Source of the DNA: a virus
Reading direction: 5' to 3' (one strand)
IMG/VR virus record: IMGVR_UViG_3300035180_001563
Coordinates: 1 to 64,000 of that record
Length of the DNA: 64,000 bases
Part shown: positions 2,424 to 59,859 of the stretch, piece after piece
How positions within the stretch are numbered: the stretch's first letter is position 1
Layout of the letters: each line of letters begins with the position of its first letter
Notes under the pieces: model-generated
Seen by the model: the letters and a program-made list of their open reading frames with translations, nothing else
What the model was told of the DNA's origin: nothing
Databases searched by the model: none
Made by a program: the position numbers and the translations under genes

Positions 2424-3392
2424 CTATTGTAAAAGCTCAACTGCACCTTTCGAAAGTCCTTCACTGATATAAACAGTAGTTACTCCTGCATTACGGAGTT
2501 GGTCACCATACTTCATTTTAACATACGCAGCCAAGAATTCAACTGTTGTTTCAGTGGGAAGCACTACGATCTTATGTTTTTCGGTGTTTAATACCAAATT
2601 GAATCTACCTCTTTGCGTTGTGGAATACCCAATTGTAATAGTATCGTTATCAGTAGCAATAACATTATCTTGTCGAACAAACACAGTGTCATCTAATTCA
2701 GCAGCGATTTCTGTTAGTAAATATCGAATCACAGGTGCTCGCACATCTCCAATTTCAATGTCAGTATGAATATATGAACGATGACCGTGAGCAATGTTTT
2801 GACAGCCATAAGAAGTTGAGTCTTTTAATCCATGCACATAATGGAACGGTCTCGTTTCGACGTTGAATGTAAGATGTTCATCGACAGTATTAACACACTG
2901 TGTTTCCACATTAATGAGAGGATATAGTTGAGAAAGTTGTCGTTGAACTAACTCCGTAAATGCTGCACCGATATAATCGAGATGGTGTGATGGATTCTTT
3001 GATTCTACTCGAGAAATGTATCGAACAGCATTTGAAGGTAAGTCTATTTTTAAACTAGGAGTTTCAATGTGAACCATCTCGTAATTGTCTGGTACATATT
3101 CATTAATAGCCGAATAACCCTCAATTACCCATAGTTTATGATCATAACCATTTATCAAAGGATTTGATAAATGTTGATCAATCACCTTCTTGATATCTTT
3201 CTTAATTGTTGAAAAATCCACCACTACTTTTTCAACATCATCTGGTTTTCCAGCTACGATAAAATTTGGATTGAAAGATCCACCACGAACACAACCTTTG
3301 TCATCAATATATGCATGATCAACCACCGAAATTTGATTCAAGAAAATCCTAGACGTTGTTGGTTCTTCTAACTTTGCAATATTTGTAAGCAC
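2424..3392 (-). CDS. queD-like: QueD/PTPS-like protein with two tandem domains
   Basis: 322 residues, GTG start with GGAG 7 nt upstream. The 6-pyruvoyl-tetrahydropterin synthase fold appears twice. Domain 1 (about 10-130) has DHAYIDDKGCVRGGSFNPNF, VVDFSTIKK and GYDHKLW. Domain 2 (about 170-320) has FHYVHGLKDSTSYGC followed by NIAHGHRSYIH, which matches the Cys plus HxH zinc and catalytic cluster of QueD. Known QueD makes 6-carboxytetrahydropterin for 7-deazaguanine synthesis. At about 120 residues, a normal QueD is one third of this length. Domain 1 appears to have lost the His cluster, so it may be structural. With QueE nearby it suggests 7-deazaguanine modification of DNA or tRNA. Confidence 0.75.
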   Translation of the reverse strand: MLTNIAKLEEPTTSRIFLNQISVVDHAYIDDKGCVRGGSFNPNFIVAGKPDDVEKVVVDFSTIKKDIKKVIDQHLSNPLINGYDHKLWVIEGYSAINEYVPDNYEMVHIETPSLKIDLPSNAVRYISRVESKNPSHHLDYIGAAFTELVQRQLSQLYPLINVETQCVNTVDEHLTFNVETRPFHYVHGLKDSTSYGCQNIAHGHRSYIHTDIEIGDVRAPVIRYLLTEIAAELDDTVFVRQDNVIATDNDTITIGYSTTQRGRFNLVLNTEKHKIVVLPTETTVEFLAAYVKMKYGDQLRNAGVTTVYISEGLSKGAVELLQ

Positions 3393-3418
3393 TTTTTATC
3401 TCCATTTTTATTTTATTA

Positions 3419-3424
3419 ATTATA
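3419..3424 (-). promoter_or_regulatory. -10 box upstream of the QueD-like gene
   Basis: On the minus strand this reads TATAAT within GTATAATTAAT, 27 nt before the GTG. The same GTATAATnAA context recurs before queE, gp44 and the 28.7-29.2 kb gene. The -35 is weak here. Confidence 0.4.
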
Positions 3425-3428
3425 CTGT

Positions 3429-4385
3429 TTAAACATAAATTTGACTAACTGATTGTTTTGATCTTATACGACGAAGTGTTTCTGCCACAACATTACTTAT
3501 AGATATTTGTCGTATCTTTTTATTTGTAAGTAACGGAATAGTATCAGTTACAACCAACTCGTCTAGCTGTGATTCATTGATAGTTTGATAAGCAGCATTC
3601 GAAAGTACGGGGTGAGTGACATATGCAACAACCTTAATTGCACCGTGATTTTTTAAAGCAGCCGCCGCTTTACATAAAGTTCCACCAGAATCAATAATGT
3701 CATCAATCATAACACAAACTTTCCCGTCAACATCACCAATGATATTCATAACTTCCGATTCACCAGCTTTTGGGCGACGTTTATCAACGATGGCTAGTTG
3801 TGTTTCTCCATTTAACTGACTTGCAATCTGTCTAGACCTAGCTACACCACCAACATCAGGAGAGACAACGATAATATTCTTCTGTTCAATCTCTTTTCTG
3901 TAGATTAGTTTAATATCTCTAATGAATTCAACTGAGGCAGACACATTCGTGAATGGGATTGTAAAAAAACCTTGTTGTTGAAGAGAGTGAATATCAACAG
4001 AAACGATATGGTCAATACCAGCAGACTGTATCATGTCAGCAATGAGTCTTGACGTTATTGGGCCACGACTAAATCCAGGTCGTCGATCTTGACGAGAATA
4101 GCTGTAATATGGAACAATAGCGATGATTCGTTTAGCTGCTGCTCGACGAAGTGCATCTGTTATTACTAACAATTCCATGAGATTATCATTAACAGGAGCA
4201 CAAGTAGATTGTATAACAAAAACAGTATTGCCCCTAACTGTTTCATCAATCTCAACTGATGTCTCACCGTCATTAAATTTTCCAACTCGCATCTTTCCCA
4301 GGACTAAACCCATTTTATCTGCAATCTTTGATGCTAACTCTATATTAGAATTTCCTGCAAACACTTTTACATTTACCAATGACAT
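3429..4385 (-). CDS. prs: Ribose-phosphate pyrophosphokinase
   Basis: 318 residues, the usual full length of bacterial PRPP synthetase. Visible motifs are NDNLMELLVITDALRRA (flexible ATP-binding region), PYYSYSRQDR, VSVDIHS (divalent metal/ATP), VSPDVGGVARSR, and the PRPP-binding loop VMIDDIIDSGGT. It converts ribose-5-phosphate and ATP to PRPP for nucleotide and NAD synthesis. In several large phages this gene accompanies a nicotinamide phosphoribosyltransferase and supports NAD regeneration; no such partner is in this window. AGGGTG serves as the ribosome site. Confidence 0.93.
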   Translation of the reverse strand: MSLVNVKVFAGNSNIELASKIADKMGLVLGKMRVGKFNDGETSVEIDETVRGNTVFVIQSTCAPVNDNLMELLVITDALRRAAAKRIIAIVPYYSYSRQDRRPGFSRGPITSRLIADMIQSAGIDHIVSVDIHSLQQQGFFTIPFTNVSASVEFIRDIKLIYRKEIEQKNIIVVSPDVGGVARSRQIASQLNGETQLAIVDKRRPKAGESEVMNIIGDVDGKVCVMIDDIIDSGGTLCKAAAALKNHGAIKVVAYVTHPVLSNAAYQTINESQLDELVVTDTIPLLTNKKIRQISISNVVAETLRRIRSKQSVSQIYV

Positions 4386-4418
4386 ATATCACCCTGTTTT
4401 TATTTAATTGTTGAAACT

Positions 4419-4535
4419 TTAGTAATCTTTATATTTTTGTAAATCGTTGGTTATGAAATCTAATCCGAGTTTGATTAATAGTGCTGAATGTATCCCTATA
4501 ATAAGTATAACTAATGCTCTTATCAATACACTCAC
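4419..4535 (-). CDS. Small single-pass membrane protein
   Basis: A 38-residue frame starting GTG at 4535, with AGGA 5 nt upstream, and ending TAA at 4419. Residues 4-24 (LIRALVILIIGIHSALLIKLG) form one hydrophobic helix. A polar basic tail (NDLQKYKDY) follows. It sits in the gap between queE and prs, in the same orientation and close to both. The ribosome site, membrane pattern and position argue for a real gene; the function is unknown. Confidence 0.6.
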   Translation of the reverse strand: MSVLIRALVILIIGIHSALLIKLGLDFITNDLQKYKDY

Positions 4536-4556
4536 AATGTTCCTATTAGTAAACAA

Positions 4557-5432
4557 TTACGTTCCTACTTTATTTCCCCACACATCTAAGTGTACACGAT
4601 GACAATATGTCAGACCTCGTTCAATACACATACGAGCCACGTCTGCTGCAATGGTGTCTTGCTGGGTGGTCACACAACTCATTGGCATGATAAACACATT
4701 ATTATCAGGTATAACACCTGCATTCCAATACTCCTGCATTGCACGCCCAACTTCTTCAAACTCTTCTTCGTTTGGTCCACACACAAACTTGAAGTACTGT
4801 TCTCCACGCTTAACTTGTTGTTGTGCAACAGCAACTTCAGGCTTGATTGCATCTTCCCACTTTTCACCACTGGCGCGAAGTTTGGGGGAATTTGAGAATG
4901 TGATTTTTCTTCCAGGTTTCCACCAACTATTTAAGGCGTTGACAAATTCACTACGAAGAGGAACAGAGCAATTTGTTTCAATAAGGATGTGTTGACAGTC
5001 TTCCATTAAAGGGTGGTTCAGCAAAACAATAATCTGTTTTTGGAACAAAAGTGGTTCACCACCAGTAATCGAAAATATAACTGGTTGATTTGTGGTTGGG
5101 TGTATCCAAGATTTGTGAGGAATCGTGTTTAACAATTCCTCAACCACTTTATTTTCATCTCCAGTAAACCACATATGTTCAAATTCTTTATTTACTGAAT
5201 ATTGACTATCACACCCACACTCAATTAGGGGAAGTTGTTGGAGTGAAGAATAATCTTTGGGGTTAAACGTTAGTGGTGCATAACCCTCTTTAGTTTTTTT
5301 ATTTGCTGGATTATTAAATCCAGCACAGGTGAAATTACATTTTGCAAAACGAAGGTATGTTGTCGGACGACCAGCATAAATAGCTTCGCCTTCTATAGAG
5401 GAAAAAATTTCGGACCAAGTGAATTTTGCCAT
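4557..5432 (-). CDS. queE-like: QueE-like radical SAM 7-carboxy-7-deazaguanine synthase
   Basis: 291 residues, AGGAG 6 nt before ATG. The N-terminus (EIFSSIEGEAIYAGRPTTYL) is the QueE opening. Cysteines at 32 and 36 (CNFTC) match the first two ligands of the 4Fe-4S CxxxC motif. The third is displaced by an insertion of about 35 residues to the CGCDSQYS block at 72-79, which matches the CDTxYs segment that normally follows directly. SITGGEPLL (about 121-129) is the SAM-binding GGE motif. It would make the deazaguanine ring precursor from QueD product. A second insertion-type QueE exists in E. coli, but there the extra loop is in the first gap. Confidence 0.82.
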   Translation of the reverse strand: MAKFTWSEIFSSIEGEAIYAGRPTTYLRFAKCNFTCAGFNNPANKKTKEGYAPLTFNPKDYSSLQQLPLIECGCDSQYSVNKEFEHMWFTGDENKVVEELLNTIPHKSWIHPTTNQPVIFSITGGEPLLFQKQIIVLLNHPLMEDCQHILIETNCSVPLRSEFVNALNSWWKPGRKITFSNSPKLRASGEKWEDAIKPEVAVAQQQVKRGEQYFKFVCGPNEEEFEEVGRAMQEYWNAGVIPDNNVFIMPMSCVTTQQDTIAADVARMCIERGLTYCHRVHLDVWGNKVGT

Positions 5433-5497: not shown

Positions 5498-7387
5498 ATG
5501 AATGAACAAATCAAATACAATACACTAATACAAAGATACCATAATTCTTATACAGGTAAAATTAAAACTCAACATCCAGAATTTTATGATTTTATTGTTA
5601 ATATGACTGCCTTTTTACCTCCTAGTGTTACCACAACACAACGGTTGTGGCATATTCATAACAATCTGTTTAGTGTTCCCCTATGTAAAACATGTAATAC
5701 TCCTGTGAATTGGGATATTGTTAAACAAGATTATAGAAAGTATTGTTGTAGAATGTGTAGTCCAAAAAAATCAGCAGAGGATCATGGAACACCTCCACAG
5801 TGTAATAACTCAAACTGTACTGAATTAGTACACTGGAACTCAAATACAAAAAAGTGGAATAATACATGTTCACATAAATGTAAAGAGGAATTATCGAGGA
5901 ATACTATGTCTTCTCTGGAGGAAATGAACAGTGTGTTATCTGCACTCCCATCTGATTATAATTATAGAAATTTTATAGCTGAACACCGAAGTGTTGTGAA
6001 TCGTATTCACTATGAAACAACACACCTACCAACTTCATATCAAATCAAAAAACGCATAGGTTGGTTGTTGGGAAGAACCAAAACAAAGCGTGAAATAATC
6101 AACACCGCCATAACATCACTCGATATTACTAACGAAGAAGATATACTGTCTTCGTTGAGGTATGCAAGAGCACTTATTTCCTCACAACTAAAAAAAGATT
6201 GCTTAATTTGTGGTGCACCAAGACAATATAATTCCAAAACCGGAAGATTTAGAAAATACTGTGGAGACGGGTGTGCCGAAAAACACAAAAAACAAATTTT
6301 ATTAAAACAATTTGTTAAAAAATTAACAGTTCTAACCCATAAAAAGTTTGGTCCTTCAAATAAAAATCATGACAATCGGTTGAACAGTTATGAATGGTTA
6401 TATGATCATCATTACAATAAAAAGTGGTCAAAACAACGAATATCCAAAGAGTTAAATGTCGACAAAGAGACTATAACAAACAGATTTAACTTGTTAGGAA
6501 TAACTTCAATACGACATTCTTCTAATAATGCTGAACAGGAAATTGTTGATTTTTTGAAATCAATATACAACGATCAGATTATACTTAATACAAGAACAAT
6601 AATTGGTCCTAAAGAACTTGACATATTTCTTCCAAACGAACAACTTGCTATAGAATATTGTGGTTTGTATTGGCACAGTGATGTCCACGACAGGATTACA
6701 CGATCGTATCATAAACAAAAATATCAATTATGCAAAAAACAAGGAATCCGGCTAATTACCATTTTTGAAGATGAATGGTTACACCATCCTGATATCGTTA
6801 AATCCAAACTGAAGAGATTGTTAAAAATAAACGATCAAAACACAGTATATGCGAGGAACACAAAAGTTATACAACTTAGTTCTACACAGTATAAACCCTT
6901 TTTAAACGAATTTCATATTCAGGGGAATAAAGATGGGTCTGTTGTATATGGGTTGACCACAGCAGATCAAATCGTTGCTGTTGTTGTGTTCAAACAACTT
7001 AAACCAAATACTTGGTCTATAGAAAGATATGCCACAAGCATTAATGTTCCAGGAGGTTTTACTAAATTGTTGTCTTATTTCCAAAAACATCACACATGGA
7101 ATCAAATAATAACATTTGCAGATTTAAGATGGAGTGAGGGTGATTTATACAAACTGGCCGGATTTACTATTGAAACAATTATTCCACCTGATTATTCCTA
7201 CATAAACCAAACAACAACGACAAGACATCATAAGTTTGGATATAGACATAAATTTTTATCAACTAAATTAGCAAAATATGATAAAAATGTAAGCGAGGCA
7301 GAAAACATGAAAAATAATAACATTTATAGGATATGGGACTGTGGGAAAATAAAATATGTAATCAACATTAACCAACTTTCTATTTAA
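5498..7387 (+). CDS. Vsr-like homing endonuclease with GNAT-like tail (copy 1)
   Basis: 629 residues, the longest family member and the only one on the plus strand. N-terminal zinc knuckles occur at about 66-90 (CKTCNTPVNW...YCCRMC), 107-128 (CNNSNC...CSHKC) and 240-265 (CLICGAP...YCGDGC). A helix-turn-helix follows (KKWSKQRISKELNVDKETI). The nuclease core has ELDIFLP, AIEYCGLYWHSD and GIRLITIFEDEW, a pattern like Vsr/EDxHD endonucleases. A C-terminal domain (HIQGNKDGS, ERYATSINVPGGF, TFADLRWSEG, PDYSY) has GNAT-like spacing. It ends in RIWDCGKIKY. It is inserted between queE and the PDF-like gene against the local transcription direction. Confidence 0.82.
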   Translation: MNEQIKYNTLIQRYHNSYTGKIKTQHPEFYDFIVNMTAFLPPSVTTTQRLWHIHNNLFSVPLCKTCNTPVNWDIVKQDYRKYCCRMCSPKKSAEDHGTPPQCNNSNCTELVHWNSNTKKWNNTCSHKCKEELSRNTMSSLEEMNSVLSALPSDYNYRNFIAEHRSVVNRIHYETTHLPTSYQIKKRIGWLLGRTKTKREIINTAITSLDITNEEDILSSLRYARALISSQLKKDCLICGAPRQYNSKTGRFRKYCGDGCAEKHKKQILLKQFVKKLTVLTHKKFGPSNKNHDNRLNSYEWLYDHHYNKKWSKQRISKELNVDKETITNRFNLLGITSIRHSSNNAEQEIVDFLKSIYNDQIILNTRTIIGPKELDIFLPNEQLAIEYCGLYWHSDVHDRITRSYHKQKYQLCKKQGIRLITIFEDEWLHHPDIVKSKLKRLLKINDQNTVYARNTKVIQLSSTQYKPFLNEFHIQGNKDGSVVYGLTTADQIVAVVVFKQLKPNTWSIERYATSINVPGGFTKLLSYFQKHHTWNQIITFADLRWSEGDLYKLAGFTIETIIPPDYSYINQTTTTRHHKFGYRHKFLSTKLAKYDKNVSEAENMKNNNIYRIWDCGKIKYVININQLSI

Positions 7388-7424: not shown

Positions 7425-7775
7425 TTAGACTCCTAATTCATATAAAGCATGTCTTACACAACTCGCTAATTTATCAACAAGAATCACTGATTGTGGTTTG
7501 CCTGACATATTGTTGTACTCAATAACTAATTTGTTTTCTACATCAAAAACCACAGCTGGATTTATCATCATCATAACACCAAAATTTTGAGACGATCCAT
7601 CTACTGCAATCAGGGGTTGATTAACACCAATATCTGGAGCAATAATATATTCCAAATTATGATACTGCATTGTTTCTAGCATGTCTCTAAACGTATTTGC
7701 TAATGAAACGTCTGTTTTTGTAATTTTATCGAGAGGGATTTGGTTGAGTTGTGGAACCAGTTCTTTAATAGCCAT
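7425..7775 (-). CDS. Peptide-deformylase-like protein lacking catalytic motifs
   Basis: 116 residues, GGAG before the ATG. The layout follows peptide deformylase: FRDMLETMQYHN, then IIAPDIGVNQPLIAV in place of the GxGLAAPQIG motif, then MINPAVVF. Where deformylases have EGCLS and QHExDH, this protein has EYNNMSG and VRHALYELGV, so the metal-binding Cys and the HExxH are gone and the chain ends early. Active deformylases occur in several phages. This looks like an inactive relative, possibly kept as a binding protein. An alternative is an unrelated hypothetical with chance similarity. Confidence 0.6.
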   Translation of the reverse strand: MAIKELVPQLNQIPLDKITKTDVSLANTFRDMLETMQYHNLEYIIAPDIGVNQPLIAVDGSSQNFGVMMMINPAVVFDVENKLVIEYNNMSGKPQSVILVDKLASCVRHALYELGV

Positions 7776-8049: not shown

Positions 8050-8153
8050 TGGTGCTGAATGTCGGATTCGAACTGACGACCTATCGCTTGTTCAGAATCC
8101 TCTCTAGAAGACTCTCAACAAGGCGATGGCTCTACCAACTGAGCTAATTCAGC
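8050..8153 (-). tRNA. tRNA-Thr(UGU) with a 28-nt insertion in the anticodon loop
   Basis: Acceptor GCTGAAT/ATTCAGC, discriminator A and encoded CCA, D arm GCTC-AGTTGGTA-GAGC, T arm GTCAG-TTCGAAT-CCGAC and anticodon stem ATCGC/GCGAT are all intact. A normal loop would be CTTGTAA, but CTTGT and the final AA are separated by 28 nt (about 8093-8120). The insert extends the hairpin: TTGTT pairs with AACAA and AGAGTC with GATTCT. Without the insert it is an ordinary bacterial tRNA-Thr body. As written it would not decode. Confidence 0.75.
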
Positions 8154-8472: not shown

Positions 8473-8555
8473 TGGTGCTGGAGGTGAGACTCGAACTCAC
8501 GGAGGTTTCCCGACGGCTTACAAAACCGTTGCAATTGCCACTATGCGACTCCAGC
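8473..8555 (-). tRNA. tRNA with anticodon UGU and long variable arm (copy A)
   Basis: Acceptor GCTGGAG/CTCCAGC, discriminator A, CCA encoded. Anticodon stem ACGGT/GCCGT with loop TTTGTAA gives anticodon TGT (Thr). The variable region is about 12 nt and can pair GG...CC, as in class II tRNAs (Leu, Ser, Tyr), which conflicts with Thr. The D stem is only about 3 bp. It is identical over 83 nt to the element at 8711-8793. The amino acid identity is therefore uncertain. Confidence 0.75.
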
Positions 8556-8605: not shown

Positions 8606-8709
8606 AATAGTATTGGATGGATTCGAACCATCGGCTTGGGCTTATAGAGCAGCGTATTGGTCCTTCACCATGAGCTCGTCCCCTCTCTACCACTGATGTA
8701 CAATACCAT
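8606..8709 (-). other. tRNA-like element with abnormal middle
   Basis: The ends look like a tRNA: GTATTG/CAATAC acceptor (extendable to about 10 bp outward, one G-T), D-loop-like AGTGGTAGAG, and a perfect T arm GATGG-TTCGAAT-CCATC. Between them no 5-7-5 anticodon arm can be drawn. Instead GAGC/GCTC and TGGT/ACCA pairs enclose a larger structure. There is no encoded CCA. It is either a decayed tRNA or a tRNA with an insertion similar in kind to the one at 8050-8153. Confidence 0.5.
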
Positions 8710-8710
8710 T

Positions 8711-8793
8711 TGGTGCTGGAGGTGAGACTCGAACTCACGGAGGTTTCCCGACGGCTTACAAAACCGTTGCAATTGCCACTATGCGACTCCAGC
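8711..8793 (-). tRNA. tRNA with anticodon UGU and long variable arm (copy B)
   Basis: An exact 83-nt duplicate of 8473-8555, with the same TTTGTAA loop, type-II-like variable arm and encoded CCA. The two copies flank the tRNA-like element at 8606-8709, consistent with a recent tandem duplication. Confidence 0.75.
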
Positions 8794-12386: not shown

Positions 12387-12461
12387 TGGTGCTCCAGCGA
12401 GGATTCGAACCCCGTTCCACTTCCTTACAAGAGAAGGCTTCACCGTCAAAGTTTCTGAAGC
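12387..12461 (-). tRNA. tRNA-Thr(UGU)
   Basis: Acceptor GCTTCAG/CTGGAGC, discriminator A, CCA encoded. Anticodon stem CTTCT/GGAAG with loop CTTGTAA. A conventional class I tRNA, and so the likely working UGU reader beside the interrupted copy at 8050. Confidence 0.85.
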
Positions 12462-17666: not shown

Positions 17667-19118
17667 TTATCCTCCAAATACTAAAAATTCAACTAATTCA
17701 CCACCTGTAAGTATAAGAGGAGATGTAAAAGTTATTTGTGTTGTGGTTGTTTCAGTATAAGAGTTTGTTACGTATGCTTTCACTCCGTTGATAAAAACCC
17801 AAAGATGATTTGTTCCAATTGTATAACTGAATGGTAGGTTGAACACAGTTTGCCCAGCGCCTGCAGTAATCACTATTCGTTTAATATCTGCGACTGTTGA
17901 AATAGACGTGTCAACATATGATTTGGATACAGCCCCATTCGGATCAACAGTTGGGGTTGAGTTGAGAACTATATCTCCAGTCATAGTTCCCCCACTTTTA
18001 GTTAAAAATAACAAGTTAGCTGATATGGTGTCGACATATAAAGACAAGTTATTATCAACATACTGTTTTGTTACTGCACCGAGAGTAGATGTTGGGTCTG
18101 CATTGAGAATCAATGCTCCGTTCATCGTGTCTCCAGCTAAATTAACTGGCGTAAATCCTAGGTTGTTTTGTTTTGTTCCTAAAACTGTTGTGACATTTGT
18201 GTCGAGTGTAGATACACTAACATCAACATATTGCTTCGTTGCTGCCCCCAAACCAGTGATTGGATCGGCGTTGAGGATTAATGAGCCAGTCATTGTACTA
18301 CCATTTAACTGAACATATCGTCCATCAGCAAATACCTGCGATATACCACTAACGGAAACTGCTGCAGTAATTGAATTATCAACATATTGTTTTGTGGCAG
18401 CTTCGAGATTATTATTTGGATCTGCGTGTAATGTAAGTGTTCCGGATAACGTTCCACCATTTATGTGGAGATATAAACCATCTGCTTGAGATTGCGTAAA
18501 TTCTCCAAGCACAGTTGTGTTAATCGCATTAATTATAGTTGTATCAACATATTGTTTTGTAGCGGCATCGTATAAACCTGATGGATCCGAACTAAGTGTT
18601 AACGTTCCAGATAAAGTTCCACCGTTTATGTGGAGATATAAACCATCTGCTTGGGTTTGCGTAAAATCAGAACTTTCAAGAGCTGCTATAGATGAATCAA
18701 CATATTGTTTTGTAGCGGCTTGAAGAGATGACGTTGGATCCCCATTAAGTATTAGGTTACCAGAGAGAACTCCTCCTCCAAGGATAGTTACAACTCCATC
18801 CCAACCCAAACCATCTCTGTATATGTTTAAAATACCTGCACTGTTATTATACCACAATTGACCAACAGTAGGATAGACAGGTGGAGTTCCATTGCTTGCA
18901 AAATTTTCAAGCAAGTAAATGAAATTTTCTTGAACAAGATCACCGTATTCAGGGACACCTTTGCCTAAAATCAAAAGAGATGTGGAAGCGGTTAGTGAAT
19001 TAAATTCCCCCCCATGTAGAGAGGAATTTAGGGGGGCGCTGGGACCATCCGTTTTATATTCGGGGATGGTAAAAGGAAGCTTTAATGTTGAATCTGTAAA
19101 GTTGATTGTATACGCCAT
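17667..19118 (-). CDS. Tail fibre protein with six DP-AATKQYVD repeats
   Basis: 483 residues. After an N-terminal GQLWYNN block it carries six copies of an approximately 50-residue unit built on L-x-x-DP-x5-AATKQYVD, alternating with ADGLYLHINGGTLSGTLTL segments, then an IVITAGAGQTVFNLPF-type tip. Such repeats are typical of trimeric phage fibre shafts. A CATAAATA late box lies 31 nt upstream. Confidence 0.78.
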   Translation of the reverse strand: MAYTINFTDSTLKLPFTIPEYKTDGPSAPLNSSLHGGEFNSLTASTSLLILGKGVPEYGDLVQENFIYLLENFASNGTPPVYPTVGQLWYNNSAGILNIYRDGLGWDGVVTILGGGVLSGNLILNGDPTSSLQAATKQYVDSSIAALESSDFTQTQADGLYLHINGGTLSGTLTLSSDPSGLYDAATKQYVDTTIINAINTTVLGEFTQSQADGLYLHINGGTLSGTLTLHADPNNNLEAATKQYVDNSITAAVSVSGISQVFADGRYVQLNGSTMTGSLILNADPITGLGAATKQYVDVSVSTLDTNVTTVLGTKQNNLGFTPVNLAGDTMNGALILNADPTSTLGAVTKQYVDNNLSLYVDTISANLLFLTKSGGTMTGDIVLNSTPTVDPNGAVSKSYVDTSISTVADIKRIVITAGAGQTVFNLPFSYTIGTNHLWVFINGVKAYVTNSYTETTTTQITFTSPLILTGGELVEFLVFGG

Positions 19119-26172: not shown

Positions 26173-27777
26173 CTACAGGGTTAACACAAACCGTTTTAAT
26201 CCACAGTCCCATATCCTGGGTATATTCTTACAATTTTCAGATTCACTCAAAGTTGGATTATATTTGGTTCCTAAAATTGATGGAAGATGTTTGTGTCTAA
26301 AATTGAATTTATGAATTCTTCTATTACCAACAACATAACGATAGTCAGGCTTAATTGTTTTATCACACACGAAACCTGTTTTTTCATACAAAGTACCATT
26401 ACTCCAACGTCGGTCAGCAAAAGTAACGATTTGGGTATACAATTCTTGTTTTTTTATATATTTTAATATTTTACCCAACCCCCCAACCACAAGAGTACTT
26501 GTAGCATACCGGTTTAACTCTAATCGACGATTACCCAACTGCTTAAATCCTGCACAAGCAACCATAACACCATCAGCAAACAAACCTATATTCAGTGAAC
26601 TTTTCCCATCCCCCATCAAATGATACTTTTCAAAAAATGGTTTTTTATCTGTAGTTACTTGTCGTATGTTGCATGCTTTTGCATAAACTTTATTACCACT
26701 AATGTTATTGAGAACATATGATATTGTATTGAATATAATATCTTTTCTGAATATCCACTCATCTTCGAATATTGTTATCAATCGAATACCAAGTTTATTA
26801 CACATGTCTAATTTATTTAAGTGATAGTTTGGTGTAATACGCTCAACACTATTACTATGCCAATATAACCCACAGTACTCAAAAGCAACTTTTTTTGAAG
26901 GTATGTACACGTCCAGTTCATATGGATATATTACGGATCGTACATTACTTTGTGCATCTGGACATATATTATAAACATACTCAAACAATTCACGTTCACC
27001 AACAGATACACTAAACCTCTTAGGTTGTATATTGTGAAATTTTAACCACCGAAGAACAGTATTCTGATCAACCTCTAAAGTTAATGCAATCTTTGATGCA
27101 GGCTGTTGATCTAATATGTGTGCTTGATATAAATAATTATAATCCTTTAATAAATCCAACACATCTGAACCGTAGTGTTTTTGCGTTTGAGAATCTACCT
27201 GATATAACTCATTCCAAAACTGTTTGTTATTATGTTTGAACACGTCTGTTTTAAAATAATTATCTTGTCCATATCGTGCAATTAAAATATTTTTTATCTT
27301 TTCAGGATTTGCTCTTAACCAAGTAACGTCTCCATATCGTTCTATATTTGTATGTCGAATCTGTTCCTTGACTTTCTCTGTTTTTCGCACATTGTCAACT
27401 CCATACAACTCCATACAAGTCTTCTGTATCTTAGTTATATTATTTTTACTTCCATATTTCAACACTTTAGTTTTCTGTATTTTTTGTTGAACGTTAACAC
27501 TTTTTCTAGAATTATCCACCCCATATTTTTCAATACAAGCTTTTTTGTATTTGTCTTTCCATGTGGGATCTTGGTTTCTACATTTAGCAGAGCAATATGT
27601 ACGATACTTTCCCAGAGAATTATCCCAGTTTACGGGATTTGAGTTACAAATTAAACACATTTGAATTGTATGTATTTGATTTATTATGTGCCATTTTCGT
27701 TGAGCTTTTTTAGCATCAATAGGCAAAAAATTTGTAAGTGTAATCAATTCTTCTTTAGGTATATTAAGATCAATCAT
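26173..27777 (-). CDS. Vsr-like homing endonuclease with GNAT-like tail (copy 2)
   Basis: 534 residues. A CLICNS...YCSAKC zinc finger (about 39-63) is followed by four YG repeats (KYGVDN, KYGSKN, LYGVDN, RYG...), then a helix-turn-helix (QPASKIALTLEVDQNTVLRW), then ELDVYIP, AFEYCGLYWHSN and GIRLITIFEDEW. The GNAT-like tail has YHLMGDGKSS, NRYATSTLVVGGLGK, TFADRRWSNG and PDYRYV. It ends RIWDCGLKRF. Its ATG overlaps the last codons of the DnaE-like gene, so it rides on that gene's translation. Confidence 0.82.
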   Translation of the reverse strand: MIDLNIPKEELITLTNFLPIDAKKAQRKWHIINQIHTIQMCLICNSNPVNWDNSLGKYRTYCSAKCRNQDPTWKDKYKKACIEKYGVDNSRKSVNVQQKIQKTKVLKYGSKNNITKIQKTCMELYGVDNVRKTEKVKEQIRHTNIERYGDVTWLRANPEKIKNILIARYGQDNYFKTDVFKHNNKQFWNELYQVDSQTQKHYGSDVLDLLKDYNYLYQAHILDQQPASKIALTLEVDQNTVLRWLKFHNIQPKRFSVSVGERELFEYVYNICPDAQSNVRSVIYPYELDVYIPSKKVAFEYCGLYWHSNSVERITPNYHLNKLDMCNKLGIRLITIFEDEWIFRKDIIFNTISYVLNNISGNKVYAKACNIRQVTTDKKPFFEKYHLMGDGKSSLNIGLFADGVMVACAGFKQLGNRRLELNRYATSTLVVGGLGKILKYIKKQELYTQIVTFADRRWSNGTLYEKTGFVCDKTIKPDYRYVVGNRRIHKFNFRHKHLPSILGTKYNPTLSESENCKNIPRIWDCGLKRFVLTL

Positions 27778-37038: not shown

Positions 37039-37299
37039 TCAACTATGTCTACGATTTACTACACCATGCTGTTCTAAACACGCAAACCCTGTTGCAACGA
37101 CCTGAAGAATTTCAAGTAGAGCATCACTATCACCATTTTTCATCCAAGCATCTTCAGCTTCAATCAACTCCTTTTTCATAATCAATAACCAGTTTGGAAT
37201 TGTGTGAATTTTTTGTTCAATAGTCCCCCACTTCAAATCTTGATATGTGCGTTCTGCTATAATAGCGTTTATCACATCTGTTCTAGGCACATTGTTCAT
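37039..37299 (-). CDS. MazG-like / NTP pyrophosphohydrolase-type protein
   Basis: 86 residues, GGAG before ATG. INAIIAERTYQDLKWGT, WLLIMKKELIEAEDAW and ALLEILQVVATGFACLEQHG give the helical E-x2-x-E...E pattern of short phage MazG-like proteins, which bind Mg and hydrolyse dNTPs or alarmones. The activity is inferred. Its start overlaps the stop of endonuclease copy 4 in an ATGA-type junction. Confidence 0.72.
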   Translation of the reverse strand: MNNVPRTDVINAIIAERTYQDLKWGTIEQKIHTIPNWLLIMKKELIEAEDAWMKNGDSDALLEILQVVATGFACLEQHGVVNRRHS

Positions 37300-38993
37300 G
37301 TTATGGTCTCCATTAAATTTGATTTTATGAATCGTATTTTACCACAATCCCATATCCGAATACAACCATTAATATCACAATTAACTCTTTCACTCAGTAG
37401 TGGATCAAAATTCTGAAGTTTTTTAGATAAAAACTTCCTTCTGTAATTAAATTTATGAACTCGTTTATTGTTTTCAATATAATAATAATCTGGTTTTAAT
37501 AATTTATTAAATACAAACCCGTTATTAACGTATAACTCTCCAACACTCCATCGACAATCTGCAAATGTAATTATTTGTTTCCATGTATGATTGTTACAAA
37601 AATGAGAAATTAATTTAGAAAACCCACCAGGAACGATTGTTGATGTTGCATATCGATTTAACACGAATGTGCCATTGGACTGTTTGATGAATGTTATTGC
37701 TGCTACGATGCTCTCTTTATATTTTAATCCATAACTAATCGAACCAGGACCATCTCCCTGAATGTGATATTTTTCAAAAAACTCACGTTTTTGGTAATAT
37801 TCAAGTGGCACAATAATGGTTTTTCTAGCAAATATTGAGTTCTGATGATCTTCTTGAATAATATGAAGAATTTTTTGTTTTATTATATCTGTTTGATAAA
37901 TCCACTCATCTGAAAATATTGTCAATAACCTAATCTTGTGTTCGGTACACCGATCCAATTTTTCTTTATGAAAGTTTGGTGTTTTAAATTTGTCACTGTG
38001 CCAATATAACCCGTTATATTCAATTGCGACATTATAGTCCGGAAGAAATATATCAAGTTCGTGTGGTGCAATAATTTGCCTATTACCAGTCACAAATTTG
38101 ATATTATGTTCAGCTAAAAAATCTGTTATTTGACTCTCTTGATAACTATGAGCATAATAGCGCACATCAATAGAAAATTTTAACATTCTTGTTGATATTA
38201 ATTTTTCATCCTTTAAACCTAATTCTGTAGCAATTTGTTGAAGTGGTTTTCTAAGTGTGTGATGTTGATTTATCAACCATTCTTTATTTGTTAATTTTTC
38301 CAATACATCACTAGAAAAATTGTCATATCTATGTTCCTGTTGTTTATGTTTTACATAATCCAGCTTTGACGTAGATGTAACACCATACTTATACATAATT
38401 GTATCATGTGCTACTTGTTGTACAGCTTTACTTTGAAGGGGAAAATCAACTCCGTATAATCTTTGATTAGTTGATTGGCGTTGATATTTGCCACTATCTG
38501 ACTGTTGATGATATTCTGTTCCGTATAAGTTCATGTTTGTTTCACGGGCTTTGGCTTTTACTATTTCATTTTGGGTTGGATACTCTACTCCATACTTAAT
38601 TAAACACGTTTTCTTATACTTGGCCTTAACTGTATCAGTTGTTCTTGGGTGACCCCCATACCTCGTGTTATTTGTGTCTGATATTTGTTGTTTTTTATCA
38701 GGTGAGTTGTTACTACAATACGTACTACAGTATTGTCTGTATCCAGTTGTATTATTGAATTTAACTATATTATTACCACACACCAAACACACTGGGTGTT
38801 TGGTGATATTATGCATTATGCAATACAGTCGTTCTGATAAAGAGGTCGCAAGTGAACCTTGTGTAAATGAGTATATCGCCTGTCGTAAATCTGGGAGGTT
38901 TTCAAGTATTTTACGTCCAGATGAATTTACTCTACCAGACTTCAATATAATGTTGAAGAGTTTTAATTGGGCGATCAACTCTTCTCGTGACAT
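37296..38993 (-). CDS. Vsr-like homing endonuclease with GNAT-like tail (copy 4)
   Basis: 565 residues. A CLVCGN...YCSTYCS finger (about 69-95) precedes five YG repeats of about 25 residues (RYGGHP, KYGVEYP, LYGTEYH, LYGVDFP, KYGVTS). A helix-turn-helix (LRKPLQQIATELGLKDEKLI) is followed by ELDIFLP, AIEYNGLYWHSD and IRLLTIFSDEW. Note Ser for Glu in the usual FEDEW. The GNAT-like tail has YHIQGDGPGS, NRYATSTIVPGGFSKL and TFADCRWSVG, ending RIWDCGKIRF. It is inserted between uvsX and the MazG-like gene; its ATG touches the uvsX stop. Confidence 0.83.
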   Translation of the reverse strand: MSREELIAQLKLFNIILKSGRVNSSGRKILENLPDLRQAIYSFTQGSLATSLSERLYCIMHNITKHPVCLVCGNNIVKFNNTTGYRQYCSTYCSNNSPDKKQQISDTNNTRYGGHPRTTDTVKAKYKKTCLIKYGVEYPTQNEIVKAKARETNMNLYGTEYHQQSDSGKYQRQSTNQRLYGVDFPLQSKAVQQVAHDTIMYKYGVTSTSKLDYVKHKQQEHRYDNFSSDVLEKLTNKEWLINQHHTLRKPLQQIATELGLKDEKLISTRMLKFSIDVRYYAHSYQESQITDFLAEHNIKFVTGNRQIIAPHELDIFLPDYNVAIEYNGLYWHSDKFKTPNFHKEKLDRCTEHKIRLLTIFSDEWIYQTDIIKQKILHIIQEDHQNSIFARKTIIVPLEYYQKREFFEKYHIQGDGPGSISYGLKYKESIVAAITFIKQSNGTFVLNRYATSTIVPGGFSKLISHFCNNHTWKQIITFADCRWSVGELYVNNGFVFNKLLKPDYYYIENNKRVHKFNYRRKFLSKKLQNFDPLLSERVNCDINGCIRIWDCGKIRFIKSNLMETIT

Positions 38994-52136: not shown

Positions 52137-53336
52137 TTAAACTGCAGAAACGCGCTTGATCTTAACTTCCATGTTTGTTGTAGATGTTACTGTTAGCACT
52201 AAATCACCACCTGATACTGTAACAGCTGCTGCAATTCCAGCAACACCAACGCCAAGCCTTAAAATTCCATATTCGTTATAATCAACATCTGCACCATTAG
52301 TTGCACCTAATACTTCAAAAGAGGACATATTAGCAGGTGTTCCTGTTTGTGTTGCGTAAACGATCCATTTAGCAACAACCGCAGTAACTGTATCTGTAAT
52401 ACTTTGTGTACCAGTTCCAACAACTTTCTTACCAGACTGTTCAACATAATCTGCAAGTGCTTGAATATTAGAATCAACAGAACTACCAGCAGTGATGATT
52501 GTATTTGTAGTTACACCAGCACCAATCGCGGAATCCAATTGTGTCAATACGTTTGTGATACTTGTTGGAGAGGTAACATTGTTAAATGTTGCTCCTGCTG
52601 CATTAAATGTACCATTAGCATTAACTAAACCACCAACGGATGTTTCAATGGCATCAACTTCTGTTTGTACGTTATTAGATTGACCCTGTAATGTAGAAAT
52701 CTGACCATTAATCGTTGTAATACTTCCATTTATTGTGGTAATATCACCTTCTACTGTAGTCATACGACCAACAAATGCTGGATCAATTGTTATTACATAA
52801 CCCACATCAGAAGAACCTGACACTGCGATCAAATTTGCTGTACCCTGCACGTTCGAGTTTGTATTATCAATTATATCAACACCACCAGATGTATTCCAGA
52901 CTAAACCGTCACCTGCATTTGCATAGAAAGCTGTACCTGCTCCAACAACGAACCAACCTGATGTTGATGCCTTATAATAATCTCCAGCGTCTTTTCCATT
53001 TGTTGGGAGAGTTGCTAAATCAAAAGGAGTTACTTGTGCAACACCAGCTGTTAACACTCCAACATAATTAAACGCATTTCCTAAGTTTGTGATTTCTGTT
53101 TGAAGATTAGTAATCTGAGAATCTACATAACTGGATGCAGCTTGTTTGGACCACTTATTGGTACCTACTCCAGCAGTAATTTTTGTATATAAATCGCCAG
53201 AACTATGATCAAGATACAACGAACCTACGGGAGCCAAACTTGGGTCACCCGCTGCTCCTGGTACACCAGCACCTTCAAGAATTTGAATATTGTCTAATTC
53301 TAAACCTTTTGTAATACGAAACATTGATAAAGCCAT
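52137..53336 (-). CDS. Fibre/connector structural protein with coiled coils
   Basis: 399 residues, AGGAG before ATG. MFRITKGLELDNIQILEGAG and APVGSLYLDHSSGDLYTKI form the attachment block. ITNLQTEITNLGNAF and TTVEGDITTINGSITTINGQ are coiled-coil/heptad stretches. The last 90 residues (AVVAKWIVYATQTGTPANMS, AVTVSGGDLVLTVTS) match the C-terminal module of 53382-53732. Likely part of the fibre or a neck/whisker protein. Confidence 0.68.
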   Translation of the reverse strand: MALSMFRITKGLELDNIQILEGAGVPGAAGDPSLAPVGSLYLDHSSGDLYTKITAGVGTNKWSKQAASSYVDSQITNLQTEITNLGNAFNYVGVLTAGVAQVTPFDLATLPTNGKDAGDYYKASTSGWFVVGAGTAFYANAGDGLVWNTSGGVDIIDNTNSNVQGTANLIAVSGSSDVGYVITIDPAFVGRMTTVEGDITTINGSITTINGQISTLQGQSNNVQTEVDAIETSVGGLVNANGTFNAAGATFNNVTSPTSITNVLTQLDSAIGAGVTTNTIITAGSSVDSNIQALADYVEQSGKKVVGTGTQSITDTVTAVVAKWIVYATQTGTPANMSSFEVLGATNGADVDYNEYGILRLGVGVAGIAAAVTVSGGDLVLTVTSTTNMEVKIKRVSAV

Positions 53337-56299: not shown

Positions 56300-57472
56300 T
56301 TACATGCCCCCAAACGGATCAAAGCTGTTCGGATCATTTGGGTCAGTAAAAGTTCCTCTAGGCTTCACATGTCCATACCCCTGAGTATAAACCATTGGTG
56401 TACCCTGCTCAGTTTCATCATACTGCTCTTGGTCATATCCATCTTCAATCTCTTCCATTTGATATAACAATTCGAATGCTTTATCTTCAAACATTGAAAT
56501 CTCCTCAATTATACGAACAATGATTAATGTTGCTGAGATGGAATCATCAGTTGAACCATATTGTGCTGCATAAGTTCCCATCTTTCGCACATATGTCTTT
56601 AGTTCTGCAAGTAAAGGTTTTGATTTCACTCCCATTTTTCCTTTAGTGATCAACTCCTTTAGATTATTACATGCTTTAGCCTTCGATTTCCCGGTTGTAG
56701 TCATTCCCAAACGCCCCTTACCGACCTCTGATACGAAATGTGCTTCGGGTGGATTATCGTCATTCTGATAAAGAGCAATAATTCCTTCCCCAACACCATT
56801 ATTCTCAACAGAGAAGTAAGCTAATGCTCCTAATCGTTCAATTGACCTTATAGCATATTTCAGAGTTTTGTATAAATCAGATGAAGAAGTGGTATTTGAT
56901 CTAAATTCACCATATTGAATTAACGATGGAAACTCAAATATTTCTATTGAACTCATATCACTACCAGTCCCTGTAGATGGATCAACGCCAATTAAAAAGT
57001 TTTGACCTTTAGTTGGCGTGTCAAACCAATGAATTCCATATTGATCTGGTTCTGGTAAGTTTTTGGTGACAATATTGTTTAATACGTGAGAACTAATCAA
57101 CAAAGCATCTGACGATAGGAAATGACAATTATGTGATAATACCCCGTTTGTCATATATGTGTGAGTTTGGGAATTAATTATATCATAAACATCTTCAACC
57201 TTATTGAAATTCACACTTTCAACTTCCACCCGACTGTGATTGTCACCAACAAGCTCTATTCCTGGATAAAGATCTTGTGTGAATACTTCTTTTGATGTGT
57301 TATATTCAAAAAAACGATGATTATGAGTAACATCAATGTAGGTTTCATTTGTAAACTTAACCCGATAGGTTTTCTTATTTTGTTGTTTTCGAATTCCATC
57401 AAATTCAACAAAACCATGTTCGGATTTAATTTTTATCCCTATATTATTTTTAATGAACTCTAAATTTTCCAT
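56300..57472 (-). CDS. terL (17) C-part: Large terminase C-half with C-intein
   Basis: The ATG at 57472 (MENLEFIKNN) is preferred over 57511, because the earlier one lies in codons that encode the endonuclease C-terminus in another frame. Residues 1-115 are the C-intein: VTHNHRFF (block B, T-x-x-H), VEDVYDIINSQTHTYMTNG (block F), and VLSHN (block G, penultimate His, terminal Asn). The extein starts with Cys+1 (CHFLSSDALLI). Then comes the RNase-H-like nuclease: FLIGVDPSTGTGSDMSSIEI (first Asp), SVENNGVGEGI (Glu), and STDDSISATLI (late Asp). Trans-splicing with the N-half should restore gp17. Confidence 0.85.
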   Translation of the reverse strand: MENLEFIKNNIGIKIKSEHGFVEFDGIRKQQNKKTYRVKFTNETYIDVTHNHRFFEYNTSKEVFTQDLYPGIELVGDNHSRVEVESVNFNKVEDVYDIINSQTHTYMTNGVLSHNCHFLSSDALLISSHVLNNIVTKNLPEPDQYGIHWFDTPTKGQNFLIGVDPSTGTGSDMSSIEIFEFPSLIQYGEFRSNTTSSSDLYKTLKYAIRSIERLGALAYFSVENNGVGEGIIALYQNDDNPPEAHFVSEVGKGRLGMTTTGKSKAKACNNLKELITKGKMGVKSKPLLAELKTYVRKMGTYAAQYGSTDDSISATLIIVRIIEEISMFEDKAFELLYQMEEIEDGYDQEQYDETEQGTPMVYTQGYGHVKPRGTFTDPNDPNSFDPFGGM

Positions 57473-59000
57473 AACCAATTTTCCCACAATCCCACACTCT
57501 ATATATTCCATTATTTACACAATTTTGACTTTCTGACACCAATGGATCGTAGTGTTTTAAACGTTTTTTCAAACTTTTATGTCTAAAGTTAAATTTGTGA
57601 ACACGTTTACCTTGTTGGACATATTGGTAATCTGGTTTGAGTACTGTTATTACATCGAACCCATTACTCTTGTAAACCTGACCTGTGCTCCATCTATTAT
57701 CTGAAAATGTTGTTATTATGCGATAATCTGAATAATTGGTTTCAAAATTGTTTATTATCTTGGAGAATCCACCGATAACTCGTTGACTTGTGGCAAATCG
57801 AACAAGTTTATACTCATGGTTTTCATGCTTTGAAAATATGCTGGCGGCAACCAGTTCATTTGTGTTATTTCGTAATCCGATTACAATGCTTCCCTTACCA
57901 TCTCCCTGAACGTGGTTTAATTCAAAAAAACGTTTTCTGTCGGCCATCAAAATATTGTTGTCTATAGTGGTATTTCTTGCATACACGACTTGTTGAGTTG
58001 ACTTGTTTGTTAAATGTAGAATTTTGTTAAAAATTAGCTCTTTGTTTTTCCATTCATCCTCAAAAATAGTAAGTAATTGAATTCCTAATTCCTTACATCT
58101 TATATATTTTTGGTAATGGTAATTATTGTCTATCCGTTCATGTTTATCACTATGCCAATACAACCCACACAGTTCGATTGCTACATTAGCGTCGGGCAAA
58201 AAGAAATCAAGTTCTCTTGGCTTGATAACATCTCTATTATTTTTTGTAAAAACGATATTGTGTTCATTTAGAAAATCTGAAAGCTCCATCTCCCAATTTG
58301 AATGTTGGAACAATTTAGTTGAAAATCCATGTTTTTTAAGATGAACTCCAACTGTTCGATCTCCTACGTCCAATTCTTGAGCAATTACATATAAAGGTTT
58401 TTGTAAATTGTAATGTTGATCGTATAACCACTCTTTGTCATCCAATAACATTTTTGACTGTGGTGAAATTAACGAAGTACTGAAATTGTTGCAGTGATAT
58501 TTCTTATCTACCGTTACCTTTATTTTGTTTCTTATTATTGGTGAACTCCACGGATGTTCAACACCATATTTTGTGATATTTGTTAATTTTCTCTTTGTTG
58601 TGATTAGGTCAAGTTCTTCTTTACTTTTAGAACTCATCGTCTTTTTAAATTTGGCTCTAAAATTATCTAAATCAGATTTGGTTCTAAGTTCTTTAGAACT
58701 GGATATAGTGTTTCCTATACATTTACGGGATTTACATGTGCGTCCATACCTCATTTCATGTGGATCAAATGAACAAAGTGTTCCACATGAACAAATTTTT
58801 ATCATAGATGGGAATAATCTATCAAATAGTTCTTGATATGATGTAACGTTATGTGACTGGAGGTGTCGTAAAAATTGACCATTCTTACGACAATATGTGT
58901 TATTGTCTATAGGGGAAACTACATACTTTCCGACTAAATCTTCAGGTTTAACATTTGTGTTAGCTAGTTCCAGTGTGGGTTGATGTTGACAACAATTCAT
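57450..59000 (-). CDS. Vsr-like homing endonuclease with GNAT-like tail (copy 5), inside split terL
   Basis: About 516 residues from ATG 59000, which has GGAG 6 nt upstream and overlaps the end of the N-half. Zinc knuckles ICSCGTLC and CKSRKCIG, one YG repeat (KYGVEHPWSS), helix-turn-helix (LQKPLYVIAQELDVGDRTVG), then ELDFFLP, AIELCGLYWHSD and GIQLLTIFEDEW. GNAT-like tail NHVQGDGKGS, VRFATSQRVIGGFSK and TFSDNRWSTG, ending RVWDCGKIGYGKF. It occupies the gap between the two intein halves, the arrangement known from fractured phage genes. Confidence 0.87.
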   Translation of the reverse strand: MNCCQHQPTLELANTNVKPEDLVGKYVVSPIDNNTYCRKNGQFLRHLQSHNVTSYQELFDRLFPSMIKICSCGTLCSFDPHEMRYGRTCKSRKCIGNTISSSKELRTKSDLDNFRAKFKKTMSSKSKEELDLITTKRKLTNITKYGVEHPWSSPIIRNKIKVTVDKKYHCNNFSTSLISPQSKMLLDDKEWLYDQHYNLQKPLYVIAQELDVGDRTVGVHLKKHGFSTKLFQHSNWEMELSDFLNEHNIVFTKNNRDVIKPRELDFFLPDANVAIELCGLYWHSDKHERIDNNYHYQKYIRCKELGIQLLTIFEDEWKNKELIFNKILHLTNKSTQQVVYARNTTIDNNILMADRKRFFELNHVQGDGKGSIVIGLRNNTNELVAASIFSKHENHEYKLVRFATSQRVIGGFSKIINNFETNYSDYRIITTFSDNRWSTGQVYKSNGFDVITVLKPDYQYVQQGKRVHKFNFRHKSLKKRLKHYDPLVSESQNCVNNGIYRVWDCGKIGYGKFRVH

Positions 59001-59859
59001 ATAATTCTCCAATAGTACAAGTTTTTGTATTTCCTTGCACATCCTGTATTTCTATAATCGTATTTATACTGCAACACTCGTATTCTTGCAACCATTTGAG
59101 CTCACCAATTTTCGCTGTTTCTGTTCTTTTGAATTCCTCGTCTCGTCCAGGTGGTTCATTCCACTTAATCCAAGTTGAAACAAATCCATTTATGTCCAAC
59201 TCTGCACCTCTCCATAGTTGTGCAAAGAGGTTTGAGTCCCCATTTGGGGTTGATGTTATGATACATGCACCACCTGTTGACAGTGTTGGTGAAATAGAAG
59301 TCCAGAACAATTCTTGAATGTTTGGAGGTACGAAAGCAAACTCATCGCAATACAATAATGAGATTGACATACCACGACCAGAATCTTCTGTGGTTGCTTG
59401 AGATATAATACGGCTCCCATTATCAAAACCTATACTGTGTTTATTCCATTCATCATCAGCAACTCCCGGCTTTAACCACTGGGGTAGATTTTCGTAAGCT
59501 GTTCTAGCTCTTGATATCATTTCCATGGCATTACTGTTTTTATTTGACACTATCAATATAGTTTTATCTTCATGAAAAATAGCAAACCACAAAAGATATG
59601 CTGCTGAAGTTACAGATTTACCTGTCTGTCTTGCTGATAATACTATATTGAGTCGATTTCCATTATAACTATTGATTAACTGTTCTTGATATGGATATAG
59701 ATTGAATGGAACGATACCCTTCACAGGATGTTGAATTTTTACATAATGTTTAATGAAATATACAGGGTCAACAGAACATCTCAATAATTCATGAACTTGA
59801 TCGTTAGAATATTCAACAAGTTCATGAGCTCTTTTTATATACGGATTTTTTCTAGCCAT
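58960..59859 (-). CDS. terL (17) N-part: Large terminase N-half (ATPase) with N-intein
   Basis: 299 residues. The ATPase of T4 gp17 type has SARQTGKS (75-82, Walker A), TILIVSNKNSNAMEMISRAR, ISLLYCDEFAFV (Walker B) and ITSTPNGDSN (coupling motif). Extein ends at about residue 261 (KWLQEYE). The last 38 residues are a short N-intein: CCSINTIIEI (block A, Cys1, N5, T6) and TIGELYELL. In T4 the uninterrupted sequence is QEYEC followed by FL, which matches QEYE joined to CHFL of the C-half. The protein packages DNA with gp16 at the portal. Confidence 0.9.
   Translation of the reverse strand: MARKNPYIKRAHELVEYSNDQVHELLRCSVDPVYFIKHYVKIQHPVKGIVPFNLYPYQEQLINSYNGNRLNIVLSARQTGKSVTSAAYLLWFAIFHEDKTILIVSNKNSNAMEMISRARTAYENLPQWLKPGVADDEWNKHSIGFDNGSRIISQATTEDSGRGMSISLLYCDEFAFVPPNIQELFWTSISPTLSTGGACIITSTPNGDSNLFAQLWRGAELDINGFVSTWIKWNEPPGRDEEFKRTETAKIGELKWLQEYECCSINTIIEIQDVQGNTKTCTIGELYELLSTSTHTGTS

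Follow-up and report, generated by a model that had tools for sequence, protein, structure and literature searches.

A 28-nt hairpin in the anticodon loop of phage tRNA genes: a candidate mini-intron family

The interrupted tRNA-Thr(UGU) gene and its phage

The window, that is, the whole stretch of DNA analysed here, comprises the first 64 kb of a 122,193-base IMG/VR record, which has no end repeats. A tRNA-Thr(UGU) gene with an interrupted anticodon loop is located at 8050-8153. The original prediction had given these coordinates exactly, and the gene itself was found on the minus strand. The features of the locus, and the evidence on which each is based, are as follows.

8050..8153, minus strand: interrupted tRNA-Thr(UGU) gene, 104 nt with the encoded CCA (8050-8052); Rfam RF00005, ARAGORN with introns, and alignment to the tRNA-Thr of phage CR9
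8123..8127, minus strand: 5' strand of the anticodon stem (nucleotides 27-31, ATCGC); fold, and covariance model match at 8127-8083
8118..8122, minus strand: anticodon loop nucleotides 32-36 (CTTGT), with the anticodon UGU at 8120-8118; alignment to uninterrupted tRNA-Thr
8090..8117, minus strand: 28-nt insert TGAGAGTCTTCTAGAGAGGATTCTGAAC between nucleotides 36 and 37; fold, ARAGORN, alignments, and covariance model
8103..8106, minus strand: apical loop of the insert, UAGA (UAAA, UAAC, and UAAU in relatives); folds
8088..8089, minus strand: nucleotides 37-38 (AA), paired with U34 and U33 in the predicted precursor; folds
8083..8087, minus strand: 3' strand of the anticodon stem (nucleotides 39-43, GCGAT); fold
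12387..12461, minus strand: uninterrupted tRNA-Thr(UGU) of the same phage, with a weaker tRNA score; ARAGORN and Rfam

The gene is complete, and all arms of a tRNA-Thr are present as had been predicted, including the acceptor stem (GCTGAAT/ATTCAGC), the D arm (GCTC/GAGC), the anticodon stem (ATCGC/GCGAT), and a T arm with one A-C mismatch; the discriminator is A, followed by CCA. Rfam RF00005 (cut-off 29) recognized the cloverleaf over 8153..8053 with 56.1 bits, which ranks fourth by Rfam score among the 14 tRNAs of the window despite the 28 extra loop positions. The uninterrupted tRNA-Thr(UGU) expected at 12387 is also present, but it scored 36.8 bits only. ARAGORN without introns (the default bacterial mode) did not call the interrupted gene in the window; when introns were allowed, the gene was called with a 28-nt insert. 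The 28-nt element is therefore probably under-reported. The 28 extra nucleotides between CTTGT and AA, as originally read, were seen by ARAGORN, Rfam, and alignment alike.

The loop and its insert read CTTGT-TGAGAGTCTTCTAGAGAGGATTCTGAAC-AA. In the predicted fold, the inner helix of the insert (AGAGTCTTC/GAGGATTCT) has 9 bp and a UAGA loop; below it are a G-G mismatch, the helix TTGTT/AACAA, a bulged C32, and a normal 5-bp anticodon stem. The hairpin had been proposed to consist of TTGTT/AACAA and AGAGTC/GATTCT; the first of these helices was recovered, whereas the inner helix is longer than proposed. The anticodon arm with the insert has a folding energy of -23.3 kcal/mol, compared with -13.0 ± 3.1 kcal/mol for dinucleotide-shuffled inserts (n = 500), only one of which folded as well.

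The tail sheath of the window phage shares 36% identity with those of NCTB and PaBG, both phages of about 258 kb, and the annotated relatives by this protein are Pseudomonas phages and phage NCTB. We infer that the record is a piece of a jumbo phage genome, and the 122 kb are probably not the whole of it. The first 25 kb of the window gave no megablast match in annotated phages, and no relatives were found for the deformylase-like ORF (7425-7775) neighbouring the tRNA gene.

A family of inserts in viral tRNA genes

The nearest record found, G001 (IMGVR_UViG_3300020048_000168, 56 kb), has a tail sheath 72% identical to that of the window phage, and was located by this protein without reference to tRNAs. 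One of its 22 tRNAs, a tRNA-Arg(CCU), has the loop CTCCT, 28 nt, AA; its insert is predicted to form a 10-bp helix with a UAAC loop, and to extend 3 bp into the anticodon loop. A scan of 2.9 million viral contigs was performed for tRNA D and T arms spaced for an insert of about 28 nt, with the sequence and fold of the insert left free. The true cases include tRNA-Thr(UGU) in G003, tRNA-Pro(UGG) in G004 and G006 (27 nt in the latter), tRNA-Arg(CCU) in G002, a CAU tRNA with 29 nt in G005, and an ambiguous Pro-like case in G007. All of them fold into a hairpin running on from the anticodon arm. Since its anticodon is not clear, the Pro-like case (27 nt, L276/L321) did not enter the model. When these records were scanned for tRNAs, G005 yielded a tRNA-Asn(GUU) with a 28-nt insert, and longer hairpin inserts were seen in G003 (34 nt) and in a tRNA-Leu of G007 (32 nt). 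G001 and G005 share a source sample. The recurring length of 28 nt partly reflects the two scans that selected about 27-29 nt, and only the G001 and G005 Asn cases were found without a length condition; inserts of other kinds, of 24-40 nt, also exist in phage tRNAs.

Many matches of the length scans were set aside as class II tRNAs, tandem tRNAs, or chance. The pattern GGTAGAGC...AGGTC, used for the tRNA-Thr(UGU) insert in viral contigs, gave two chance matches, both ordinary tRNAs; the extended-stem pattern CGCCTTGTT...AACAAGCG was unspecific among the matches listed. Queries with the tRNAs against annotated phages gave partial or uninterrupted tRNA matches only, and thus no isolate with a 28-nt insert was found there. 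An assembly artefact was rejected, since the same element occurs in independent contigs. The original prediction had pointed to related phages as a check; in these the insert is neither absent nor random, and its hairpin, site, and length recur.

The borders of the insert could be fixed by alignment. The tRNA-Thr of Cronobacter phage CR9 aligned to both interrupted tRNA-Thr genes (window and G003) with one 28-nt gap, between nucleotides 36 and 37. The tRNA-Pro of Rhizobium phage RHph_N38 and of Escherichia phage Jgk1 aligned to that of G004 with a 28-nt gap at the same place, and the anticodon arm is identical on either side of it. The window and G004 inserts cannot be slid along the loop because the flanking letters differ.

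The inserts of the window and G003 tRNA-Thr genes have the common frame TGA-N8-TARA-N8-TGAAC and differ at 9 of 28 letters, one in the apical loop and eight in the helix. The eight helix differences form four two-sided compensatory changes (G-C to A-U, A-U to U-A, U-A to C-G, and C-G to U-A), and there is no uncompensated one. Eight members were aligned with MAFFT by sequence only (alignment A1). Of the cells for the 11 hairpin pairs in this alignment, 90.8% hold a standard pair (72.7 ± 2.6% after shuffling), and two-sided changes occur in nine of the pairs. The covariation score reaches 0.656 versus 0.271 ± 0.052, with none of 500 shuffles as high, and falls to 0.09-0.26 when the partner is shifted by 1-3 columns. 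RNAalifold predicted the same helix. Complete pairing of the anticodon was found in only two of the eight predicted folds.

A covariance model was also built from the six non-Thr members, leaving out the window and G003 tRNA-Thr inserts. The window insert was its sole match in the 64 kb (33.5 bits, E = 3.7e-6), and the G003 Thr insert was recovered as well. The window insert thus belongs to the hairpin family defined here, as it matches a model built without it or its closest relative. Model R1 (all eight members; 35 viral records) recovered its members; its other matches with E < 0.1 were the reverse strands of members, the tRNA-Leu insert of G007, and one chance match. The weak match in G013 (E = 0.096) was discarded as it lies outside any tRNA, and R1 gave no match in G008.

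These data bear on the idea that small mobile or template-switch hairpins have disabled the tRNA genes and have no function for the phage. The inserts are quasi-palindromic, a type that template switching can make, and several isoacceptors are struck at one site, as mobility would give. However, this explanation is unlikely in view of the helix being kept by compensatory changes, the intact tRNA bodies (56-59 bits in Rfam), and the length staying constant at 27-29 nt (the range selected by two of the scans) while the sequence diverges. Moreover, just two tRNAs are present in the 183 kb of G004, and one of them carries the insert and is otherwise intact.

In the DNA read of G003, G004, G005 (both Asn and CAU), and G006, no other tRNA shares the anticodon of the interrupted one, which applies to five of the eight genes; the records are fragments, so this count is support rather than proof. 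The window, G001, and G002 also hold an uninterrupted tRNA with the same anticodon. The five sole genes argue against simple disablement. They also count against an unspliced decoy or shield, in which the long anticodon arm would be the mature form, and would occupy or resist anticodon nucleases or tRNA-sensing defences and take no part in decoding. The evasion of tRNA-targeting defences by phage tRNAs through changes of the anticodon loop is known (PMC10264068). The conserved hairpin and length would suit such a role, and in the three records with an uninterrupted partner the interrupted tRNA need not decode. However, a decoy would be expected to display its anticodon and not to bury it, and the insert lies at one exact point with both functional halves of the loop intact (CUUGU/AA and UUUGG/GA). 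A decoy is considered somewhat unlikely on balance.

Among the eight family tRNAs, six read ANN codons (Thr, Thr, Asn, Arg, Arg, and CAU), although the numbers are small; such tRNAs make up only about a third of all those listed for the same records. The ANN-decoding class carries t6A at position 37, which adjoins the insert.

Comparison with known introns and a possible route of removal

Group I introns of bacterial tRNA genes also break the anticodon region, and they occur in bacteria and phages; however, these ribozymes span about 200 nt at the least. As previously noted, they are far longer than the insert, and 28 nt cannot hold a group I core. No Rfam intron match was found at the window tRNA, and a group I intron was ruled out by the length.

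A bulge-helix-bulge consists of two 3-nt bulges on opposite strands, with a 4-bp helix between them, at the splice sites. The window fold shows no more than one bulged C and one G-G mismatch, and its insert lies at 36/37 and not at the canonical intron position 37/38. Cellular genomes were scanned for tRNA-Thr(UGU) with 8-38 extra nucleotides (one isoacceptor, with its commonest arm sequences); among 84,980 prokaryote genomes there were six matches, all from archaea, where such introns are known, and none from bacteria. The clear archaeal matches carry the insert after nucleotide 37. An archaeal-type intron, in a contig of an archaeal virus or in a gene taken from an archaeon, would agree with this distribution and with a site only one nucleotide off the canonical one. 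However, such an origin is extremely improbable given the fold, the tail sheath relatives, and the uninterrupted homologues, which come from phages of bacteria. The splicing endonuclease of the archaeal type (tRNA_int_endo, PF01974) was also absent from all 16 insert-bearing records (all insert types), whereas four archaeal controls were positive. Similarly, RtcB was found in none of these 16 records, and its positive controls were detected.

The protein-spliced tRNA introns of archaea and eukaryotes (PMC4090602) resemble the 28-nt family: they are short, lie in the anticodon loop, and form a precursor helix that takes in the loop, and in both the structure is conserved rather than the sequence. 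The family differs in its position, in having no bulge-helix-bulge, and in that neither the endonuclease nor RtcB was found in its records.

The original prediction had overlooked a precedent in phages. 'Enigmatic introns' were described in the tRNAs of Lak phages by Devoto et al. in 2019, and one intron of a tRNA-Thr(TGT) may encode a tRNA (PMC6784885); later Lak work merely adapts tRNA calling to such introns (PMC8346664). There was no other mention of such phage tRNA introns in the literature searched, which covers few of the subscription journals. Like the window insert, the Lak introns lie in the anticodon region of phage tRNA genes, including tRNA-Thr(TGT); like the 28-nt family, they have been matched to no known class and have uninterrupted alleles in relatives. 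The inserts of the 28-nt family share a consensus fold, a simple hairpin located at 36/37, and occur in several isoacceptors and in other phages, whereas the Lak tRNA-Thr intron is described as possibly tRNA-encoding. The family is filed here as a new form of phage tRNA intron, different from the kind with an embedded tRNA.

To our knowledge, there is no enzyme known to splice such a tRNA insert in viruses of bacteria. ATP-dependent RNA ligase families (PF09414 or PF09511, E <= 0.001) were present in 12 of the 16 insert-bearing records and in 9 of 19 tRNA-bearing controls, which are generally larger records; the excess is in the expected direction and not significant. Six of the seven records G001-G007 have such a ligase; in G001 the PF09414 match lies at 52146-52604. 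No ligase, RtcB, or splicing endonuclease was found in the 122-kb record of the window phage, and the host may supply the enzymes.

The tRNA repair of phage T4, in which Pnkp and Rnl1 act after an anticodon nuclease, concerns the same loop, and joining-capable ligases are the kind found in most insert-bearing records; however, T4-type repair mends tRNAs that the host has cleaved, and no insert is taken out. A conditional tRNA might be imagined on this basis, in which a host anticodon nuclease or RNase III cuts the hairpin in defence and a phage ligase repairs it, so that the tRNA is switched on only under attack. The target loop and the ligase genes would fit, but no particular nuclease is tied to the borders, the idea is speculative, and the imperfect 19-bp helix is short for RNase III. 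It is considered quite unlikely.

The tRNA body is intact, the site and length of the insert are exact, and its hairpin covaries across phages and isoacceptors. The exact site, the near-constant length, the compensated structure, the loop drawn into the helix, and the intact body are features typical of a pre-tRNA intron that a protein reads by its structure and removes. Among the options first proposed (a minimal intron, a decoy, or a disabled tRNA), the intron is best supported by the recurrence and the compensation. The chance is judged about even that the 28-nt insert is a genuine tRNA mini-intron of a phage family, which would be cut out by a protein before the halves are ligated. In the precursor, the insert hairpin would stack on the anticodon stem and pair with the anticodon loop, and because of this pairing the precursor should not decode. 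A nuclease of the host or the phage might cleave both borders; an ATP-dependent RNA ligase of the Rnl1/Rnl2 kind, as in phage tRNA repair, might then join the halves, and the product would be a normal tRNA-Thr(UGU). Endonucleolytic release followed by Rnl-type ligation appears the likeliest route. It is tentatively suggested, as a broader possibility, that phages of bacteria have an undescribed protein-dependent splicing of a 28-nt hairpin at 36/37 in several tRNAs, which would work without a bulge-helix-bulge, an archaeal endonuclease, or RtcB, and probably with an Rnl-type ligase.

As the element is too small for a known ribozyme, it points either to a phage splicing route outside those known or to an anticodon that is buried on purpose, and in either case the role of phage tRNAs would have to be seen differently. 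The eight sequences, the exact borders, and the covariance model make the question raised by the Lak phage report directly testable.

Other tRNA inserts and neighbouring genes

Several other unusual tRNA genes were observed. The window contains a tRNA-like gene at 8607-8708 (minus strand), called 'Pyl' by ARAGORN, with a 23-nt insert in the anticodon arm; its D stem is degenerate, and it lacks CCA. Six other viral contigs (L046, L095, L120, L256, L257, and L258) share its core CAYGGTGAAGGACCAA and T arm GATGGTTCGAATCCATC, there within well-formed tRNA-like genes, most of which have CCA. The G001 gene at 17982-18087 may be a diverged counterpart, and genes of this kind appear to encode a conserved tRNA-like RNA whose anticodon arm has been replaced. 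At 8473-8555 and 8711-8793 of the window (minus strand) there are two 83-nt tRNAs of identical sequence, with a UGU anticodon and a class II-like variable arm; a similarly built 87-nt tRNA with UGU occurs in G001 (L266, 5563-5649, minus strand). It would be unusual for a Leu/Ser-type body to read a Thr codon.

Other phage tRNAs also carry inserts. A homologous 30-nt insert (AGGTRTGATAAGTAARTTCAYAC...) follows U33, unlike the 28-nt family, at L059 1367-1469, L102 146-248, and L116 93-196 (minus strand); it interrupts tRNA-Asn(GUU) and tRNA-Lys(UUU) genes on separate contigs, and its hairpin shows a compensatory change. In the 236-kb record L013 (G008), three tRNAs (2224-2380, 3871-4023, and 5005-5159) have inserts of 79-84 nt, in each of which a small hairpin on the 5' side is accompanied by a T-arm-like one, unlike the 28-nt family. 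These fit the description of the possibly tRNA-encoding Lak intron, and it might be speculated that their T-arm/acceptor-like minihelix is a substrate of RNase P. Further anticodon-loop inserts of 24-40 nt, with other lengths and sequences and mostly with a hairpin, were found in L319, L322, L115 (7176-7284), L108 (6719-6824), L070 (2482-2576), L032 (8913-9017), and L092 (12864-12976). The longer inserts at L023 7451-7578 and L104 7076-7188 (minus strand) share a motif resembling AATCTGT...AGATTA(A/C)GTTCAGCAA, and are possibly a third insert family.

The window also encodes four large paralogous HNH homing endonucleases (phrog_3339), at 5498-7387 on the plus strand and at 26173-27777, 37296-38993, and 57450-59042 on the minus strand; one of them adjoins the tRNA array. 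Moreover, QueD-like, PRPP synthetase, and QueE-like genes lie in a row at 2424-5432 (minus strand), which suggests a pathway for deazaguanine-type DNA or nucleotide modification.
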